Assembly (NCBI GenBank): GCA_024998565.1
Contig: JACOEM010000001.1
Location: 186,001-250,000, forward strand
DNA from: Nitrospira sp.
GTDB taxonomy: Bacteria; Nitrospirota; Nitrospiria; Nitrospirales; Nitrospiraceae
Reading direction: 5' to 3'
Length of the DNA stretch: 64,000 nucleotides
The notes below the pieces were generated by a model that had not been told where the DNA came from, ran no database searches, and saw only the letters and a list, made by a program, of their open reading frames with translations. How positions within the stretch are numbered: position 1 is the first letter of the stretch; each line of letters begins with the position of its first letter. The translations under genes were made by a program, and so were the position numbers. This document shows positions 55,090 through 61,279 of this stretch, one piece after another.

Positions 55090-55164
55090 GGGCGATTAGC
55101 TCAGGGGGAGAGCGCTTCCTTCACACGGAAGAGGCCACTGGTTCGATACCAGTATCGCCCACCA
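55090..55164 (+). tRNA. tRNA-Val(CAC), attachment site of the element
   Basis: A full cloverleaf of 75 bases with encoded CCA: acceptor GGGCGAT/ATCGCCC, D-arm GCTC/GAGC, anticodon stem CTTCC/GGAAG with loop TTCACAC (anticodon CAC), T-arm ACTGG/CCAGT. The last 47 bases are repeated at 61141-61187, so the 3' part of the gene was restored by the integrated element. A T run (TTTTT) directly follows the CCA. Confidence 0.97.
55118..55164. repeat. attL: 47-base core repeat in tRNA-Val
   Basis: This is the left copy of the 47-base direct repeat and runs from the anticodon stem to the CCA end of tRNA-Val. The match with 61141-61187 is exact; bases on both sides differ (T/A before, A/T after), so the core borders are clear. 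Confidence 0.93.
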
Positions 55165-56242
55165 ATTTTTCAACGACTTCCAAGACAGCACTCTCCGACA
55201 CACGCAGCACTGTGGTCATTTTTGTGTCACGGTGTGACCGTCGGTCCAAAATCTCCACTCCATCTCGCAGGCTTTCCGGGTAATGATGCGCATAGCGTTG
55301 CGTCATCATCGGCGACTTGTGCCCGAGTAGCCGTTGCACCTTGTAGAGATCGACGCCCGACTGGACCAGCCGCGTTGCGAAGGTGTGACGAAGGTCATGG
55401 AAATGGCAGTTCATGATGCCCGCCTTTGCCATCGCAGGCCGTAACGCCCGTCGCAGATGGTTGGGATCTAACCGTGTACCGGCGAGACTTGGAAAGACCA
55501 GTGCGGTTTTGATGTGCCGCACCTTGGCCTTCTCAGTCAGAAGCGCCATCACGGTGTGATTCAATGGCACGGTCCGCCGCTCCCCGTTTTTCGACTCAAA
55601 CACGGTTGCAGTTCTTCGGAACAGATCCACGCCGGTCCAGGTCAGTGACAGGATCTCGCCCAACCGCATCCCGCTATGGAGTGCGAACACCACGAGCTCG
55701 CGCAACCACGACGGACAGGTATCGAGCAATCGCGCCTCCTCATCTTCCATCAGCCACCGGTCTCGTTTAGTCACTCCCTTTTCGAGAGACACGCGGCTGA
55801 CCGGATTGTCTCGGCACCATTCCCACTCTCGCTTAGCAAGGCTGAAGGCCTTCCTCAAACACGTGAGCTCCCGATTGATCGAGGCAGGTTTCACCCCGGC
55901 AGCATACCGTAGACTTTTATACTCCACGATCAGCTTGGGGGTAATCTCGCCGAGCGTCCGCTCTCCGAAGTAGGCACGGAAGCGCTTGACGAAGGCCTGC
56001 CCGGTTTGTCGGCTGGCCAATTTCACGAGGTGCTCTCGCTCAAAGCGATCCATCAATTCCTTGAAGGTTCGGGATTGTTCTTCAGCCCGATCGAAATACT
56101 GCCCCTCGATCAATTGCACCTTCACCTTCGCCATGATGGCGTCAGCCAAGGCTCGATTCGATGACCCCGTCGACCGGCGAATGCGCTGCCCCTGAAACAC
56201 AATATTCATCCACCAAATATTCCCTCGCTTAACGAGCCCCAT
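55121..56242 (-). CDS. int: Phage-type tyrosine integrase
   Basis: The protein has 373 residues from the ATG at 56242, with AAGGAG eight bases upstream. Catalytic residues are R (LHSGMRLGEILSLTW), HxxR (FHDLRHTFATRLVQSG), H (LLGHKSPMMT) and Tyr (QRYAHHYPE). The N-terminal GLVKRGNIWWMNIVFQGQRI resembles a DNA arm-binding domain. The last 14 residues (GDTGIEPVASSV end) are encoded by the antisense strand of tRNA-Val, and the TGA stop falls in the anticodon loop. The start overlaps the AlpA-like stop by 14 bases. Confidence 0.92.
   Translation of the reverse strand: MGLVKRGNIWWMNIVFQGQRIRRSTGSSNRALADAIMAKVKVQLIEGQYFDRAEEQSRTFKELMDRFEREHLVKLASRQTGQAFVKRFRAYFGERTLGEITPKLIVEYKSLRYAAGVKPASINRELTCLRKAFSLAKREWEWCRDNPVSRVSLEKGVTKRDRWLMEDEEARLLDTCPSWLRELVVFALHSGMRLGEILSLTWTGVDLFRRTATVFESKNGERRTVPLNHTVMALLTEKAKVRHIKTALVFPSLAGTRLDPNHLRRALRPAMAKAGIMNCHFHDLRHTFATRLVQSGVDLYKVQRLLGHKSPMMTQRYAHHYPESLRDGVEILDRRSHRDTKMTTVLRVSESAVLEVVEKLVGDTGIEPVASSV
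55208..55229. repeat. 22-base arm repeat, left copy
   Basis: CACTGTGGTCATTTTTGTGT followed by CA is repeated exactly at 60990-61011 in the same orientation. It lies 43 bases inside attL, within the integrase coding region. Arm-type integrase binding site is a likely role. Confidence 0.6.
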
Positions 56243-56543
56243 CGTTACTCTCCTTTCCAAGAGGGCTCGCTGTTGGTCTGGTTTCCCCGTGGCGAGGAGT
56301 ATAGACGGCGCGTTTGGCCGCTTCAATGAGGTGGTCTACGTCACCAGCTTTATGCCGAGGCACACGAGGGGGGAGGTTCGAAGACGTGGAAGAAAAGCCA
56401 TTTAGCCACGCCTGGATGGCCTCAGGTTCGAAGCGGACGAGGCCATGAATCCGACGGCAAGGAATCTTGTTTTGTGAGACCCATAGATAGAGCGTGGATT
56501 GTTTGATATTGAGCCACGCGGAGAGTTCTTTGACGGTGAGCAT
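56229..56543 (-). CDS. AlpA/excisionase-like helix-turn-helix protein
   Basis: The protein has 104 residues. LTVKELSAWLNIKQSTLYLW and RRIHGLVRFEPEAIQAWLNG form a winged MerR/AlpA-type (HTH_17) DNA-binding domain. A basic, Ser/Pro-rich tail of about 50 residues follows. In elements of this type the protein acts as excisionase or activates the integrase. It overlaps int by 14 bases and follows rep by 42 bases, so rep-alpA-int looks like one operon. Confidence 0.82.
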   Translation of the reverse strand: MLTVKELSAWLNIKQSTLYLWVSQNKIPCRRIHGLVRFEPEAIQAWLNGFSSTSSNLPPRVPRHKAGDVDHLIEAAKRAVYTPRHGETRPTASPLGKESNDGAR

Positions 56544-56585
56544 GATGCAGATACACCGGGGAGTCTTGCGACACCCCCAGTCTCC

Positions 56586-57590
56586 CTAACATGGGCTGCC
56601 CGCGTGACCGCCGGCAGACCGGTGAAACCGAGTGGGTTGCTTGAGTAAATTGCGGTGTCGGTCTTTCCACCGAGCAATGCCCCTGACAATTTCGTTCAGT
56701 AGCCATTCTTCCCCTCCAGGGGTGGCACAAATGACCGCCAACATCGGCGTCAGGGTGTCACTCACCCATCGTTTTACGTTTTGCAGGGTCTGCACCTGCT
56801 TTTCCTGGGCCAATCGCCCCTTCTGAAATCCCTCCGTCAGGAGGGCGTACCACTCCAAGACAGGAGCCCGGTACCGTTCCTCATCCTCGGCATCCTTTGG
56901 GACCTGCCGGAAATCCACATAGGACCGGAGTAAGCCGATTACCAACTCCTTCCAGTCGGCTTCGTCTAACGTTGCCAATGCTCGGGCACACTGTTCGGCC
57001 CGATCTTTCTTCAATTCCAATTCCCATCGCGTCCCGTAATCCTGATAGTTCTCCTGGCCCTTGCTCTGAAGTTCGAGCCGCTTGTCATAAATCCGCAATA
57101 GGGCCTGACTCTGCGGACTCCCAAAGTACATCGTCTCGCCAGTCGTCGCCCCGGTGCCGTGCGTCAGCTTCGAGACGATATGCCGGACCTGAGCCGCCCT
57201 TGTGACACATTGGCCTGCCGAAACCGCATCGCGAATTGTTGCCACTGGCACAGTTCCCGCTCGGTCATCGAGCGCACAGTCGATGCGCGTGACATGCCCT
57301 TGCTGCTTTTGCACCCACTTGAGCAGGGTTCGGATCTGATCCAGCGTCAGGGCGGACGCCAGGCCGCCCGACAGATCCACATGGATTTCATTCGGACGCC
57401 GAGGGGCATTGGTGCCCAGTTTGCCGACCCCGCGCAGGCCGTCTGCCCTCATCCAAGACAGGGGATACCCTCGGAAGCCGCCTTTCGCCTTACTCCAGTC
57501 CCCACCCAATACCCGCATGGTCTCTTCAGGGTTGCTCGCCAGGACGGTAAAGGCCAGCCAATCACTGGTGAGGGTGAAGCTAGAATCCAT
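56586..57590 (-). CDS. Replication initiator, Rep_trans-like (pfam02486 type)
   Basis: The protein has 334 residues. Blocks typical of this group are DWLAFTVLASNPEETMRVLG, GKLGTNAPRRPNEIHVDLSG, TRIDCALDDRAGTVPVATIR, TMYFGSPQSQALLRIYDKRL and TRWELELKKDRAEQCARAL. Relatives start rolling-circle replication in small plasmids, filamentous phages (RstA type) and conjugative transposons. The Tyr in RIYDKR is a candidate nicking residue, but I cannot confirm it. Strong hairpins stand immediately upstream. Confidence 0.75.
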   Translation of the reverse strand: MDSSFTLTSDWLAFTVLASNPEETMRVLGGDWSKAKGGFRGYPLSWMRADGLRGVGKLGTNAPRRPNEIHVDLSGGLASALTLDQIRTLLKWVQKQQGHVTRIDCALDDRAGTVPVATIRDAVSAGQCVTRAAQVRHIVSKLTHGTGATTGETMYFGSPQSQALLRIYDKRLELQSKGQENYQDYGTRWELELKKDRAEQCARALATLDEADWKELVIGLLRSYVDFRQVPKDAEDEERYRAPVLEWYALLTEGFQKGRLAQEKQVQTLQNVKRWVSDTLTPMLAVICATPGGEEWLLNEIVRGIARWKDRHRNLLKQPTRFHRSAGGHAGSPC

Positions 57591-57629
57591 AGACTCTATC
57601 GAACTCCTGTACGGAGCGCTGTGGGTAGC

Positions 57630-57699
57630 GCCCCCGTGTTACCAAGACGGGGGCCATTCCGGTCCGCCCCGCAGCCTATCGGCATGCGGCGCGGACCGG
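57630..57699. other. Two strong hairpins upstream of rep: candidate origin or leader
   Basis: First hairpin: GCCCCCGT (57630-57637) pairs with ACGGGGGC (57647-57654) around a 9-base loop. Second: CCGGTCCGC (57659-57667) pairs with GCGGACCGG (57691-57699), with an inner five-pair CCGCA/TGCGG. They lie 40-110 bases upstream of the rep start, in the 330-base gap 57591-57921. They could be the nick site for Rep, a transfer origin or a regulatory leader. Confidence 0.45.
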
Positions 57700-57856
57700 C
57701 TTTGTCTCCCGGCGAAGGACGACGATGTTGCTGTGTGACGCGCTCCAACTCGTACACGTATCCCCTTCTTGTGAGCCCTGCTCCCGTTCGTCTCACCCTA
57801 TGCGAATTCTCAGAGCGAAGCCAAGAACCCGGAAGGGGTCACTAGCGGTCATGAGG

Positions 57857-57884
57857 GGACAGGAGAGGACAGATTTTGGGACAG
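57857..57884. repeat. Three GGACAG direct repeats (iteron-like)
   Basis: GGACAG occurs at 57857-57862, 57867-57872 and 57879-57884, with 10- and 12-base steps, about one DNA turn. A further GGGACAG lies at 58062-58068. They may bind Rep or a regulator, and stand just upstream of the 66-residue gene. Confidence 0.35.
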
Positions 57885-57921
57885 AATAGACACGAAGGGA
57901 AGTAGGCATAAGGAGGCGTAT

Positions 57922-58122
57922 GTGCGCTTTAGTGCGCTCAGAGCGGCAATTGTGCGCTTCGCGCTGAGAGAGGACATCGGGCAAGCAGAAATCGACTCGT
58001 TTTTGGCTGGTGCGCGAAAAAAAGTTTGGGGAGGAATTAGGAGCCTTGTGGGGTACGATCAGGGACAGGTTCCCCATGCTTTTATCGTTGGGCTGTGTGC
58101 CGTTTACTCCAAAGGGAAATGA
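57922..58122 (+). CDS. Small unknown protein on the element, 66 residues
   Basis: No family is recognised. The GTG at 57922 has a perfect AAGGAGG five bases before it. The product is basic and soluble-looking (RFSALRAAIVRFALREDIGQ, then FLAGARKKVWGGIRSLVG). Its stop overlaps the ATG at 58119 (ATGA), which supports coupled translation with the next small membrane protein. A minus-strand reading frame also exists here but lacks a ribosome site. Confidence 0.48.
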   Translation: MRFSALRAAIVRFALREDIGQAEIDSFLAGARKKVWGGIRSLVGYDQGQVPHAFIVGLCAVYSKGK

Positions 58123-58334
58123 TACTTAGGACGAGCACAAGCTTAAATAGATTCAGCAATATACTTATGACGGTTGGAGCCCTCTTATTCGTCGGAGGAT
58201 TGTGAGTTGCCTTTCACCAACCTTCGACTCGGTTCACGCTAAGTTGGACATTGATGGTAGGGGGGGGATGCATTGCAGTTGTGGGAATAGGTTTCCACAT
58301 TTACAGAGTGGTTCAGGCCCTTAGAAAAAGGTGA
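58119..58334 (+). pseudogene. Two-helix small membrane protein interrupted by in-frame TGA
   Basis: From the ATG at 58119, 28 codons give MILRTSTSLNRFSNILMTVG and ALLFVGGL, ending at TGA (58203-58205). The same frame continues for 42 codons with a second helix (LSWTLMVGGGCIAVVGIGFH) and a basic end (IYRVVQALRKR), to a TGA at 58332. Read through, it would be a 71-residue two-helix protein. A run of eight G follows at about 58261. It may be a decayed gene, or a short 28-residue protein followed by an unrelated frame. Confidence 0.42.
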
Positions 58335-58456
58335 ATTTGCTACGATGCCGCCATTCAGGGCACGAACATCCCATACCAGCTCACAACGAAAATCACGCCC
58401 ATCAACAACGCGAACTAGGCCGCGATCTTCACAAATGACATCCCGACGAAGCCAGC

Positions 58457-59524
58457 ATGCTGAACGACAAATCGCCGCACTCTAGCAGATGTGCTATTAG
58501 AGACTGTCGATCAAAAGCGTTATCGCTGAGTGCTTTCTTGCTGTGTATGGGTACCGTCCTTGGCACAATTCTCTCCACTCCAATCTCTCACGCTGCAAGC
58601 TTTGATTGTAAGCAAGCGGCAAACCGTGCGGAACGACACATTTGTGCTAATGAGGAACTGTCTCGAATAGATGAAGTGCTTGCCGATGAATATAAATCTG
58701 CAGTCACCTCTGTGAGCGCTGAAAATCGATTGAGGCTAAAAGAGTTTCAGAAGGAATGGCTTCGTGCAAGAAATGCATGCGAAAATCGCACGTGTATTCT
58801 GGATCAATACGAAAAGCAAATTCTTTCGTTGCGATATTTCGACTGCGCTTCACACGATTCGACTCTAGGCCAAAGATGTCCATCAGAACTCCCGCAAGGG
58901 CTGCCACGCACCGCAAGTGGCAAAATATTACTTCTGACGCGAAAGGACTGTCGAGAAACGCAGAGCCCGAATGCCACCGAGATAATCGCAGACTGTATTG
59001 AGGCCAGAATTTACGACCCTTGCGACGATGCCGGAGGAACATGGGGGCGCGCACAATGTGCATATGCTCATATGGAAGTAGCTGAGAGGCGACGGCGCGT
59101 CGCAGAAAAGCACCTTCTAGAGTTATGGGGACGTTCTATGGACGCACGAGATTTGAGAACTGCTCTCTCGAAATCCACCGATCAGTGGATTAGGGCTAGA
59201 GACAAGTTGTGCAATGCCAGAAATCTAAACTATAGCAAGTATGAATTTGAGCAAGAGGGAGTAGACATAAGTGCTGTAGTTCCGCCACCAGATGACGCTG
59301 AGATATGGGGGTTTTGCCTTCGGCGGTTGGCCGAGGAGAGGGCCGATGACATGGAATATTTCATCAAGGAAAAGAAGATCCAAGGCAACCAGCGCGACCG
59401 TAACTCCTTCACAAAATACCTTGCCCAGAGCGGATTCAAGCGCCCCAATGACGACAAAGCCACTCCTGAGAAAAGACCGTCTGATTTTCCACCTACTGAC
59501 TCCTGCACCGTCACGCGATGTTGA
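58457..59524 (+). CDS. Exported two-domain DUF1311 (LprI-like) protein
   Basis: The protein has 355 residues with a signal peptide (SLSAFLLCMGTVLGTILSTP, then ISHAAS). The first mature domain, SFDCKQAANRAERHICANEE then DEVLADEYKSAV and WLRARNACENRTCILDQYE, is DUF1311, found in the lysozyme inhibitor LprI. A weaker second copy follows (YDPCDDAGGTWGRAQCAYAH, RTALSKSTDQWIRARDKLCN). The coding region is AT-rich compared with the chromosome and is element cargo. Inhibition of lysozyme or a phage endolysin is a family-based guess. Confidence 0.72.
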   Translation: MLNDKSPHSSRCAIRDCRSKALSLSAFLLCMGTVLGTILSTPISHAASFDCKQAANRAERHICANEELSRIDEVLADEYKSAVTSVSAENRLRLKEFQKEWLRARNACENRTCILDQYEKQILSLRYFDCASHDSTLGQRCPSELPQGLPRTASGKILLLTRKDCRETQSPNATEIIADCIEARIYDPCDDAGGTWGRAQCAYAHMEVAERRRRVAEKHLLELWGRSMDARDLRTALSKSTDQWIRARDKLCNARNLNYSKYEFEQEGVDISAVVPPPDDAEIWGFCLRRLAEERADDMEYFIKEKKIQGNQRDRNSFTKYLAQSGFKRPNDDKATPEKRPSDFPPTDSCTVTRC

Positions 59525-59687
59525 CTTCGTAAAACATGCATAACGGCTTGAATGGTGAATGAAAATCTAGCTGGGATGCTGTCGCTCTGAACACCAAGGT
59601 TGTAACATTCTCGTTATGATGGGGTACGACTATACGCATCGTCTCCCTGTGGCGAATGTTCACCAGAAATGATCACTCATTGGCTTT

Positions 59688-59750
59688 TAATGCTTTGTAA
59701 GAGAACCAATGCAACGGTAGAGCAGTAAGAAATCTAAGTTTTAACCTTCA
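59688..59750. repeat. Degenerate att-like segment
   Basis: This stretch aligns by eye with 61083-61146, the sequence leading into the attR core, at about 44 of 64 positions with one gap. It ends at the same CCTTCA where the 47-base core begins. It lies in the 233-base gap 59525-59757, which shows nothing else. Confidence 0.38.
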
Positions 59751-59757
59751 GAAATGT

Positions 59758-59988
59758 ATGACATTCATGCCTATCCCTTTCGCACTATTCTTTTTTTCTA
59801 TGGGAGTCATGCTTGTTTATGGCACCTACAGGAGATGGCCTGCTTTAGTAAATCCTCCTGATAAATGGGCACCATTTTACTCTCAGGCTTTGCTGAAAAA
59901 GTGGTTTGGTCGCACTTTTCTGATCGCCTATAACTACATCCTCGGTCTACTGTTTATTGCAGTCACCTGCATTGGACTCTGGAACTGA
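59758..59988 (+). CDS. Two-helix membrane protein on the element, 76 residues
   Basis: Two hydrophobic helices (FALFFFSMGVMLVYGTYRRW and AYNYILGLLFIAVTCIGLWN) border a 25-residue loop (PALVNPPDKWAPFYSQALLK). Codon use is AT-rich. No ribosome site is obvious; M4 at 59767 is an alternative start. No family is recognised. It directly follows the degenerate att-like segment. Confidence 0.5.
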   Translation: MTFMPIPFALFFFSMGVMLVYGTYRRWPALVNPPDKWAPFYSQALLKKWFGRTFLIAYNYILGLLFIAVTCIGLWN

Positions 59989-60043
59989 TTCACGAAATAA
60001 CTCCATCTATCCCGACAGTCTAGCAAGGTCACAGGTCAGATCG

Positions 60044-60076
60044 CCGACGTCGAATAAAGAGGTCGGGAGTCTTTTT
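60044..60076 (+). terminator. Possible terminator after the 76-residue gene
   Basis: CCGAC (60044-60048) can pair with GTCGG (60062-60066) and is followed by CTTTTT at 60071-60076. An alternative longer-range pairing uses CCCGAC at 60011-60016. The stem is short. Confidence 0.35.
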
Positions 60077-60154
60077 ATAGCGCGAGGCGTCGTCCACTCG
60101 AGCACCGGACAGTTACGCTCGCCTCTTCGCACTATGGCGCAAGGCACGGATCGA

Positions 60155-60574
60155 CTAGCGGTGCGCGAGCAGGCGGGCAAACTCTGCGGCTGAAATGACC
60201 GGCACACCGCTGTAGTGTGAGGCCTCGAAATCCTTATCCCCGGTGACGAAGTATTGAGGTGGGGGGATGGTCGCCATGAGATCGAGGAATGGTCGATCAT
60301 GCGCATCACGCAGAGGGGTGTTCGTGGGATGGGGATCGACGATCTGCACTTCGGCTTGGATTGTGGTCAGAAAGCTCGTGATATTCACCCCAGCTTGGGT
60401 GAACGCGCGTTGGAGTTTGGGGCGACGCAGAACGGCTTCCAGTTCCGCGAAGGTATCGGAGCTCATGACGGGGATGAGGCGGCGCTGTAATACAGCCTGA
60501 ATGATCCGGGCAGGGGGCCCTGCGGCGGACAACAGGCCGGACACGAAAATATTGGTATCAAGAACGACGCGCAC
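60155..60574 (-). CDS. PIN-domain toxin of a toxin-antitoxin pair
   Basis: PIN toxins are Mg-dependent ribonucleases. From the GTG at 60574 the protein has 139 residues. The acidic site residues are in RVVLDTNIFVSGLLS, RDAHDRPFLDLMATIP and FVTGDKDFEASHYSGVPV. It fits the bacterial PIN family often called toxin component TIGR00305. The start lies 17 bases inside the antitoxin gene, which comes first. An ATG at 60640 would lie far inside the antitoxin and is not preferred. Confidence 0.82.
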   Translation of the reverse strand: MRVVLDTNIFVSGLLSAAGPPARIIQAVLQRRLIPVMSSDTFAELEAVLRRPKLQRAFTQAGVNITSFLTTIQAEVQIVDPHPTNTPLRDAHDRPFLDLMATIPPPQYFVTGDKDFEASHYSGVPVISAAEFARLLAHR

Positions 60575-60818
60575 GCTCGCGCTCGCGCCGAACCGCTGCA
60601 ACCTCAGCGGCAATCTGTTCGGGGGTGACGCCCAGTTCACGGGTGGCGCGGCGGAGCTTGCTGACCATACGGACCAGCTTCTTGCGACTCGCCGCTCTGG
60701 CCGGGGACTCCAAGATCAGGATGTCGGAGTCGCGGTGCGCCACGACGGCTTTTCCCCACCCCTTCATCCACGAGGAGGGAATCACGACGCCTTCTTTGGT
60801 GTACTTCACGGCTTTCAT
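60558..60818 (-). CDS. Antitoxin partner of the PIN toxin
   Basis: The protein has 86 residues. The N-terminal MKAVKYTKEGVVIPSSWMKG looks like an AbrB/MazE-type DNA-binding start. The basic C-terminal half (KKLVRMVSKLRRATRELG, ending EVAAVRRERERARRS) would wrap the toxin. Order and overlap with the PIN gene are typical of type II pairs. The C-terminal EL.GVTPEQIAAEV region suggests a helical toxin-binding arm. Confidence 0.68.
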   Translation of the reverse strand: MKAVKYTKEGVVIPSSWMKGWGKAVVAHRDSDILILESPARAASRKKLVRMVSKLRRATRELGVTPEQIAAEVAAVRRERERARRS

Positions 60819-61140
60819 CGGCAGCACATCCAGTGTATCCGCAGGCAGTATACCATGGTGGTACGGCTCTGTAGTCAGCGGTGGGCGATTTTGCGAGCCG
60901 CTCGACCGTCGTTCATTGCTAGACTGTTCGGACTACCCGATTTTTCGACCATCCCCGCTGATTAATGATCCTGTCTTCCGAGGCCAGTTCACTGTGGTCA
61001 TTTTTGTGTCAGAAATTATCCAAAACCTTACAATCTCCTGTACACAGTAGACTCGATAGAAAGCTCTTAACCGCATGACATGTAACGGTTTTGTGAGGAA
61101 ACCATTGCAACAGCGAGCAATTCAAAAATCTAGCTTTTCA
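60819..61140. other. Gene-free attP-arm region left of attR
   Basis: This stretch of about 320 bases has no supported gene. It holds the right copy of the 22-base arm repeat (60990-61011) and an AT-rich lead-in to the attR core (from 61083) that resembles 59688-59750. Such lengths are normal for the arm side of an attachment site. Confidence 0.5.
60990..61011. repeat. 22-base arm repeat, right copy
   Basis: Exact copy of 55208-55229 in the same direction, 129 bases left of the attR core. Confidence 0.6.
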
Positions 61141-61187
61141 CCTTCACACGGAAGAGGCCACTGGTTCGATACCAGTATCGCCCACCA
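61141..61187. repeat. attR: 47-base core repeat
   Basis: Exact copy of the tRNA-Val 3' part (55118-55164), from anticodon stem to CCA. It lacks the 5' half, so it is not a second tRNA gene. It marks the right end of the element; 61188 onward is chromosomal. Confidence 0.93.
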
Positions 61188-61279
61188 TTCATATCCCGAC
61201 CGACCCAACACCACTACGATCCTGCAACAGCTCAATTTATCTCGACATCCTACGGCAGCCAGCTGCCCGCGCCCTCAAC

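Follow-up and report, generated by a model that had tools for sequence, protein, structure and literature searches.

An integrated element at tRNA-Val

The 64,000-nucleotide stretch analyzed here (the window) comes from the genome of a Nitrospira sp. (GenBank assembly GCA_024998565.1, contig JACOEM010000001.1, positions 186,001 to 250,000) and carries a small integrated element at a tRNA-Val(CAC) gene. We think that the element probably belongs to an old lineage of tRNA-integrating, self-replicating satellites of inoviruses (filamentous phages) in the Nitrospira family. The intact target gene, identified with ARAGORN, lies at 55090..55164 on the plus strand, and its last 47 bp (55118-55164) form the attachment (att) core at the integrase end. 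An exact copy, containing the 3′ part of the tRNA only, is found on the same strand at 61141..61187 and marks the far end. The two copies are spaced 6,023 bp apart, which is also the length of the unit with one copy counted in, and when the assembly that includes the window (4,131,833 bases in 19 contigs) was searched with 55118-55230, the 47-bp sequence turned up nowhere else. Farther in from each end of the element is one copy of another exact repeat, 22 bp long, at 55208-55229 (within the 3′ end of int) and at 60990-61011. It looks like an arm-type integrase site, and its sequence recurs at both ends of a related element, L035; where the integrase is of another type, satellites and inoviruses alike have the sequence TTTAGCACAAATTTAGCACA at the equivalent place.

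Three genes follow the tRNA on the minus strand, with the cargo beyond them. The first encodes a tyrosine integrase of 373 amino acids (55121..56242; PF00589, 4e-40; phrog_1, 1.5e-75), the stop codon of which lies inside the att core. The second, overlapping int, encodes an AlpA/Xis-like helix-turn-helix (HTH) protein of 104 amino acids (56229..56543; PF12728, 9e-11; TIGR01764, 4e-08, above the cut-off). The third, rep, encodes a Rep_trans rolling-circle initiator of 334 amino acids (56586..57590; PF02486, 1.3e-33; PDB 4cij, GST REP, 1.1e-17), in which Pfam recognized only PF02486 and a sub-threshold Phage_CRI match. The tyrosine motif of Rep aligns with the Rep_trans structures 4cij and 4cwe. 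The catalytic tyrosine and the nick position are putative, both being assigned by analogy. Approximately 0.87 kb without a likely gene separates rep from the cargo. Among the seven annotated proteins of the element, searches of Pfam, PHROGs and NCBIfam detected no conjugation-machinery or virion family, apart from a sub-threshold MobT match of Rep. A preliminary description of this DNA, made from the letters alone, had put forward an exact 47-base repeat bounding a unit of approximately 6 kb, which combined phage-type integration by an integrase and an AlpA-like protein with a Rep_trans-like initiator, and in which no conjugation or virion genes were recognized. Each of these points is borne out by the coordinates, the assembly search and the profile matches. 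The 22-bp inner repeat, and the hairpins 5′ of rep, the PIN gene pair and the three co-resident inovirus prophages described below, are additions to that description.

The right flank of the element, which begins at 61188, was then compared with 18 tRNA-Val loci from 18 genomes of the genus. In nine of them (L117, L118, L120, L121, L126, L127, L128, L129 and L133) the tRNA passes directly into this flank, that is, the site is empty. By its own account, the preliminary description would have failed in its mobile-element reading had all related genomes carried these genes without the repeat, or had the initiator matched no Rep family; the empty sites and the PF02486 match decided both tests in its favor. 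Both repeats surround an element in five loci (L122, L124, L125, L130 and L132), and the remaining four (L116, L119, L123 and L131) are contig-end cuts or remnants. The unit in the window therefore has the att repeats, the integrase and the empty site by which an integrative element is recognized. At L122 (genome G010), the first 141 bp of an element begin again beyond the far repeat, as a tandem insertion or a remnant at tRNA-Val.

Related elements in the genus

A scan with one genome per species yielded 36 loci with this Rep. Some Rep match was present in 27 of 29 genomes of the genus, which range from draft to complete, and a Rep of the satellite type, defined as a match above 65% identity, was present in 23, frequently in several copies and with up to ten matches in one genome, fragments and copies cut by contig ends included. 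Because contigs often end within rep, the copies are under-counted. For fourteen elements, that of the window included, tRNA repeats defined both limits, giving lengths of 4,088-9,307 bp. These elements occupy tRNA-Arg(CCT), Thr(CGT), Gly(GCC), Glu(CTC) and Val(CAC); one further copy, cut by a contig end, lies at tRNA-Met(CAT). Satellite contigs were also seen in assemblies of Nitrosomonas, Nitrosospira and Sumerlaeaceae (L006, L015, L027, L031 and L036), where they are probably mis-binned.

To see how the modules are related, we compared the 16 elements having a recognized adjacent tRNA and a full Rep. Integrases of elements at the same target tRNA were 94% identical (median; range 71-97, 21 pairs), whereas those at different tRNAs were 58% identical (median; range 43-77, 99 pairs). 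Rep identity, in contrast, was approximately 94% whether the target tRNAs agreed or differed. Since the integrases sort by tRNA and Rep does not, the Rep/origin module is the common property of these elements, with integrase and cargo being exchanged. At the same tRNA as in the window, locus L153, from another genus, combines an integrase of 91% identity with a Rep of 57% identity to those of the window element. In three loci of closely related genomes, the identities of flank and element do not match: L130 and L035 are 99% and 96% identical to the window in the right flank and 91% and 89% in the int-alpA-rep block, and L016 is 92% identical in the block and 79% in the flank. Such mismatches fit repeated, separate arrivals at one tRNA-Val site. 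We consider it very probable that the window element was actively mobile in the recent past.

The origin module upstream of rep

The best-conserved segment of the satellites is the last 115 bp 5′ of rep. In the window, it was found that 57628-57700 folds into two hairpins with a z-score of −6.8 (DNA parameters). The hairpin nearer to rep, GCCCCCGTCTTGGTAACACGGGGGC (57630..57654, minus strand), is a candidate double-strand origin, and the adjoining hairpin (57659..57699, minus strand), which is long, GC-rich and imperfect, could be part of the origin or a packaging signal. The pattern CCCCCGNCTNGGTAANACGGGGG, representing the origin hairpin, had 75 matches in the 29 genomes and none in a reversed control. 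In 73 of the matches, a Rep on the same strand follows at a distance of 41-93 bp, and the other two are on contigs without a Rep match. The hairpins are of two types. The T-type (46 copies, plus one with G) accompanies a satellite Rep every time, and the A-type (26 copies) accompanies an inovirus Rep every time. The origin hairpin of the window matches the sequence at the same place in an inovirus, L084, at 86% over 44 bp (E 3e-7); in inoviruses, the hairpin sits within the 3′ end of a gene that we call alpB.

Among Rep loci chosen from across the family, 31 of 32 had the origin hairpin, the other (L158, from another genus) having lost its 5′ half. RNAalifold, applied to a MAFFT alignment of 31 origin regions, retained this hairpin, which is invariant in all 31 and therefore silent on covariation. 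It missed the longer hairpin, for which 2 pairs only were reported, one with changes on both sides in 6 sequences, and therefore each sequence was folded individually against shuffles. By this measure, the GC hairpin before the origin had z < −2 in 30 of 31 loci, compared with 4 of 86 random segments.

Farther upstream of rep, at 57828..57871 on the minus strand, are four TGNCC repeats phased at 10 bp and followed by CGGG, which constitute, by analogy, a candidate operator. We scanned both strands of the window and of L004-L036, some of them cut short, a total of 670 kb. Four phased units were found around Rep in 16 of 34 satellite loci and in the four genus inovirus copies that the scan included, but in no other place. 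In the inoviruses, the phased repeats precede alpB-rep. Because the repeats precede alpB in inoviruses, and because the genus satellites lack this gene, their retention suggests an operator that was inherited without its regulator.

Inovirus prophages in the same genome and family

Three further Rep matches in the window's genome, each approximately 50% identical, belong to filamentous prophages, L083, L084 and L085, located on contigs C14, C9 and C4. All three have Zot, Rep and coat-type genes (in L084, Zot PF05707 at 1.6e-28 and Rep_trans at 3e-37), and among them are one tRNA-Lys integrase of the satellite type and one serine recombinase. A reading of L138 and L146 gave the remaining components: a coat-like protein of 70 amino acids, which has a signal peptide, a membrane span and a basic tail; another small membrane protein; proteins resembling pVI and pIII; and an 87-residue candidate single-stranded DNA (ssDNA)-binding protein. 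The coat, pVI/pIII-like and ssDNA-binding proteins were assigned by shape and gene order. When eight inovirus genes were sought, all were present in 16 of 16 inovirus loci of the genus, and none had a match in the window element. In the satellite set, 42 loci were searched, of which some are cut by contig ends and some are occupied tRNA-Val sites; matches were confined to L007 and L022 and came from neighboring inoviruses. An Inoviridae prophage was thus rejected as the identity of the element, given that neither a Zot/pI export ATPase nor coat genes were found in the eight-gene search or with Pfam and PHROGs in the seven proteins.

The inovirus prophages of the family (L083, L084, L085, L138-L150 and L164-L172) share with the window element the Rep_trans initiator, the two-hairpin module and the use of tRNA targets, and part of them share AlpA and the integrase as well. 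They differ from it in carrying genes for Zot, the coat, pVI/pIII-like proteins and an ssDNA-binding protein; those of the genus have, in addition, alpB upstream of rep and a Rep approximately 50% identical to that of the window. Of 18 inovirus loci in the genus, three (L084, L138 and L146) have the satellite-type integrase and AlpA, at tRNA-Lys(TTT), and bear the arm sequence TTTAGCACAAATTTAGCACA that is also found in many satellites. The preliminary description had called the gene set unusual. The combination is real, but it is less unusual than was claimed, because the local inoviruses also combine an integrase with Rep_trans.

For most inovirus loci, no second bounding repeat was found within approximately 20 kb. 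Once neighboring pieces had been added, clear tRNA repeats, 14-35 kb apart, were seen to bound L138, L139, L140, L143 and L145, and a weaker repeat was seen at L141; none emerged for L084, L085 and L142. The five larger units might be inoviruses with much cargo or else stacked insertions.

Descent of the Rep module

At a threshold of 1e-20, Rep matches were found in 35 of 295 genomes sampled from the phylum, all belonging to one family and distributed over 8 genera. Twenty loci from genera other than Nitrospira comprise 11 without inovirus genes (L153-L163) and 9 inoviruses (L164-L172). Here, a locus counted as a satellite when the 11-20 kb surrounding Rep gave no tblastn match (E<=1e-3) to any of the eight inovirus genes of Nitrospira, and L164 was called an inovirus on its coat, pIII and ssDNA-binding matches, no Zot being seen on its short contig. 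A tree was built with a selection of 46 Reps, from 15 satellites and 9 inoviruses of the genus, the 20 loci from other genera, and 2 outgroups. Twenty-five of the 26 virion-less elements fall in one clade (support 91/87), which spans several genera and lies beside the genus inoviruses and inside the inoviruses of the family. The remaining one, L162, groups with the inovirus L172 (97/95). A single origin of all 26 was rejected (p-AU 0.005), L162 having arisen apart. The 25-member clade and the separate position of L162 thus indicate that virion genes have disappeared on two or more occasions, one of them ancient and followed by spread. We regard it as almost certain that the window element descends from inoviruses. 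The nesting of the Rep clade among the inoviruses of the family, together with the shared origin-hairpin module, indicates that the replication module is of the filamentous-phage type.

A probable satellite of filamentous phages and the alternative explanations

If the element is an inovirus satellite, its cycle could run as follows. The tyrosine integrase and its AlpA-like partner would insert the element, as a circle, into the 3′ part of the tRNA gene and could excise it, and the Rep_trans initiator would use the candidate hairpin directly 5′ of rep as its origin; these steps are supported by the sequence, in that they follow from the protein families and the anatomy of the element. After excision, Rep would nick the loop (in the CTTG/GTAA region) and drive rolling-circle replication, giving rise to single-stranded circles. 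The ssDNA-binding protein, the coat and a Zot-type export ATPase would come from a filamentous phage that resides in the cell or infects it, and the three prophages in the window's genome are candidates for such a helper. The satellite DNA would leave in helper-made filaments, enter a new cell, be made double-stranded and integrate at the tRNA matching its integrase, while toxin-antitoxin and defense cargo (described below) would pay the host.

The packaging step is inferred from the inovirus descent, the lack of virion genes in the element, the retention of the hairpin module, the co-resident phages and one pair in genome G251, where the GC hairpins of a satellite (L156) and a co-resident inovirus (L169) agree in 29 of 32 bases, despite a Rep identity of 43%. 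On these grounds, we lean toward packaging of satellite DNA by inoviruses. Several observations weigh against this view. Zot is present in 16 of the 29 genus genomes, and 10 of the 23 satellite-bearing genomes lack it; the two are not associated (both in 13 genomes, satellite only in 10, Zot only in 3, neither in 3; Fisher p=1.0). Searches of IMG/VR yielded 2 candidate stretches for Rep, 18 for Zot and 0 for the origin hairpin, none of which was confirmed, and thus no encapsidated or circular satellite copy was found there. The GC hairpin of the satellites has the shape of that of the genus inoviruses but another sequence. That of the window had no sequence counterpart in any inovirus compared, those of its own genome included; its best scores, 9-12, were below the maximum of 17 in a reversed control, and its pattern, allowing up to 3 mismatches in the 29 genomes, occurs only at satellite Rep or origin places; hence, no shared packaging signal is shown for the window element. 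The 25-member clade, moreover, does not quite reach the strict threshold for support (95 and 80), and two of its rows have long branches. Because there is no Zot association, no inovirus sequence match and no virion-borne copy, the GC hairpin may be a component of the Rep origin instead of a packaging signal.

One alternative is an integrative rolling-circle plasmid of inovirus ancestry that carries out its own excision, replication and reintegration and is transferred by DNA uptake or by conjugative mobilization, with Rep as relaxase and with the inoviruses uninvolved. The independence of satellites and Zot and the absence of a hairpin sequence common to the genus inoviruses would suit it, as would the kinship of Rep_trans proteins to MOBT relaxases (PMC6499999) and the weak MobT match of Rep in NCBIfam (E 3e-15). 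That match, however, scores 55.7 bits against a cut-off of 600, and Pfam finds in Rep no N-terminal HTH of the kind that, with PF02486, makes up the MOBT architecture according to the same source, for which reasons membership among the MOBT integrative mobilizable elements was rejected. Moreover, the seven window proteins include no transfer gene, all 199 PLSDB records were below 60% identity, so that no free plasmid at >=60% was seen, and the G251 pair does share its hairpin. A transient circular form of the element might nevertheless occur. We think that the plasmid explanation is possible, though rather unlikely. The preliminary description had left the choice between a new family of integrative plasmid and one of phage satellite; with the Rep clade placed among inoviruses and three co-resident prophages having the same kind of origin, the satellite is favored and the plasmid less so.

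Another explanation is that the element is a decaying inovirus prophage, its virion genes deleted, on its way out. Broken copies do exist, for example frameshifted reps in G001 and the L158 origin without its 5′ half, and L162 shows that separate loss of virion genes is possible. For Rep, however, the median ratio of nonsynonymous to synonymous substitution rates (dN/dS) was 0.066 (230 pairs from 22 sequences; maximum 0.10) at a dS of 0.55, which indicates that rep is under strong purifying selection and that the elements are therefore not decaying prophages. The single clade spanning several genera, the conserved layout, att arms and origin, and the repeated joining of new integrases and cargo to one Rep type also argue against decay, which we regard as very improbable. 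A filamentous phage with coat and export genes too diverged for recognition is scarcely credible: several cargo open reading frames, including that of a 76-residue hydrophobic protein in the window, are without a family match, but the cargo is not common between copies (only the Rep and integrase clusters are general in the 14 delimited elements, the other clusters occurring in at most 4), and tblastn still detects Zot and coat in inoviruses with a Rep only ~41% identical. A capsid satellite of the P4/PICI type was also rejected, as no such gene was seen among the seven window proteins, no dedicated search having been made.

Comparison with known systems

The inovirus satellite favored here has counterparts among the vibriophages. 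Filamentous vibriophages have the satellites RS1 and TLC-phi, which integrate at dif through the host XerC/XerD (PMC4246890); RS1 helps its helper phage (PMC11389934). According to these sources, the two satellites resemble the window element in having their own replication module, no virion genes and chromosomal integration; their helper is a filamentous phage, as would be that of the window element. Unlike these XerCD/dif users, the element itself encodes a tyrosine integrase and an excisionase and has tRNA targets and varied cargo, in a comparison of features other than the Rep families. Filamentous prophages of marine Vibrio likewise lie at dif and lack integrases, according to PMC11630473. 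The MOBT integrative mobilizable elements of Firmicutes share with the window element a tyrosine integrase, a PF02486 protein and the small size of the integrated unit, and are set apart by the HTH and the MobT model discussed above. The Rep_trans plasmids of the pSTK1/pT181 type have the same fold family and an alignable tyrosine motif (4cij, 4cwe). Such plasmids are not known to carry an integrase, and the element has no free plasmid relative in PLSDB at >=60% identity.

The satellites of filamentous phages that we found in the literature are thus the XerCD/dif cases of vibriophages and one plasmid known by its title. The latter, an inovirus phage satellite, is reportedly an autonomous plasmid (Schmid et al., 2024, to go by the title, as cited in PMC11389934). 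Titles and abstracts of open papers showed nothing on inovirus satellites in Nitrospira, which is not proof of novelty, and the main text of an inovirus survey, in the part available, contains neither "satellite" nor "nitrospira" (PMC6813254). While the reading of the unit as a mobile element stood, a family-wide lineage goes beyond what the preliminary description had envisaged. We see an even chance that this is an old multi-genus satellite lineage with a selected Rep/origin module and with integrases swapped to reach different tRNA genes, which moves anti-phage and toxin-antitoxin cargo in helper filaments and is the filamentous-phage counterpart of P4/PICI. If so, inovirus satellites can form an old lineage that extends through a family and occurs in most genomes of a nitrite-oxidizer genus that drives nitrification, and would be a vehicle for defense genes that leaves no trace in capsid- or Zot-based scans. 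The pairing of T-type and A-type origins with their Reps and the integrase-to-tRNA code are predictions that can be tested directly.

Cargo and minor features

The cargo of the window element consists of four genes. On the plus strand are those for an LprI-domain protein of 355 amino acids (58457..59524; PF07007, 4e-08) and for the small hydrophobic protein of 76 amino acids (59758..59988; no Pfam family above the cut-off). On the minus strand are a PIN-domain toxin gene with an uncertain start codon (60155..60640; PF13470, 4e-16; TIGR00305, 1e-19) and the gene for its probable antitoxin partner of 89 amino acids (60558..60827), which had no family above the cut-off and was assigned by position and overlap only. 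The antitoxin candidate is retained next to the PIN gene in L005, L015, L016 and L035, and in L005 the pair accompanies a Glu-type integrase 43% identical to that of the window.

Twenty of the larger cargo proteins in delimited elements were scanned with Pfam, ten of them also with PADLOC, and nine of the twenty had no Pfam family. The scans recognized Dsr1 in L018 (PADLOC, 1e-34), a NACHT protein with NCH1 in L011 (4.5e-40), a patatin in L009 together with a protein of the metallo-beta-lactamase fold that weakly matches LmuA/RTasMBL, and Fic proteins in L028 and L034; L028 also has a transporter of the bile-acid symporter type and an insertion sequence (IS)-type integrase core. The smallest satellite, L023 (4.1 kb), encodes at 229-1002 a cargo protein with two TonB_C matches. 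Filamentous phages enter cells through TolA, and this protein might act as a decoy or exclusion protein. Finally, adjoining one inovirus prophage of the window's genome is an open reading frame of 2454 codons (L085:10716-18080), in which repeats of the YD/RHS type were recognized by eye.

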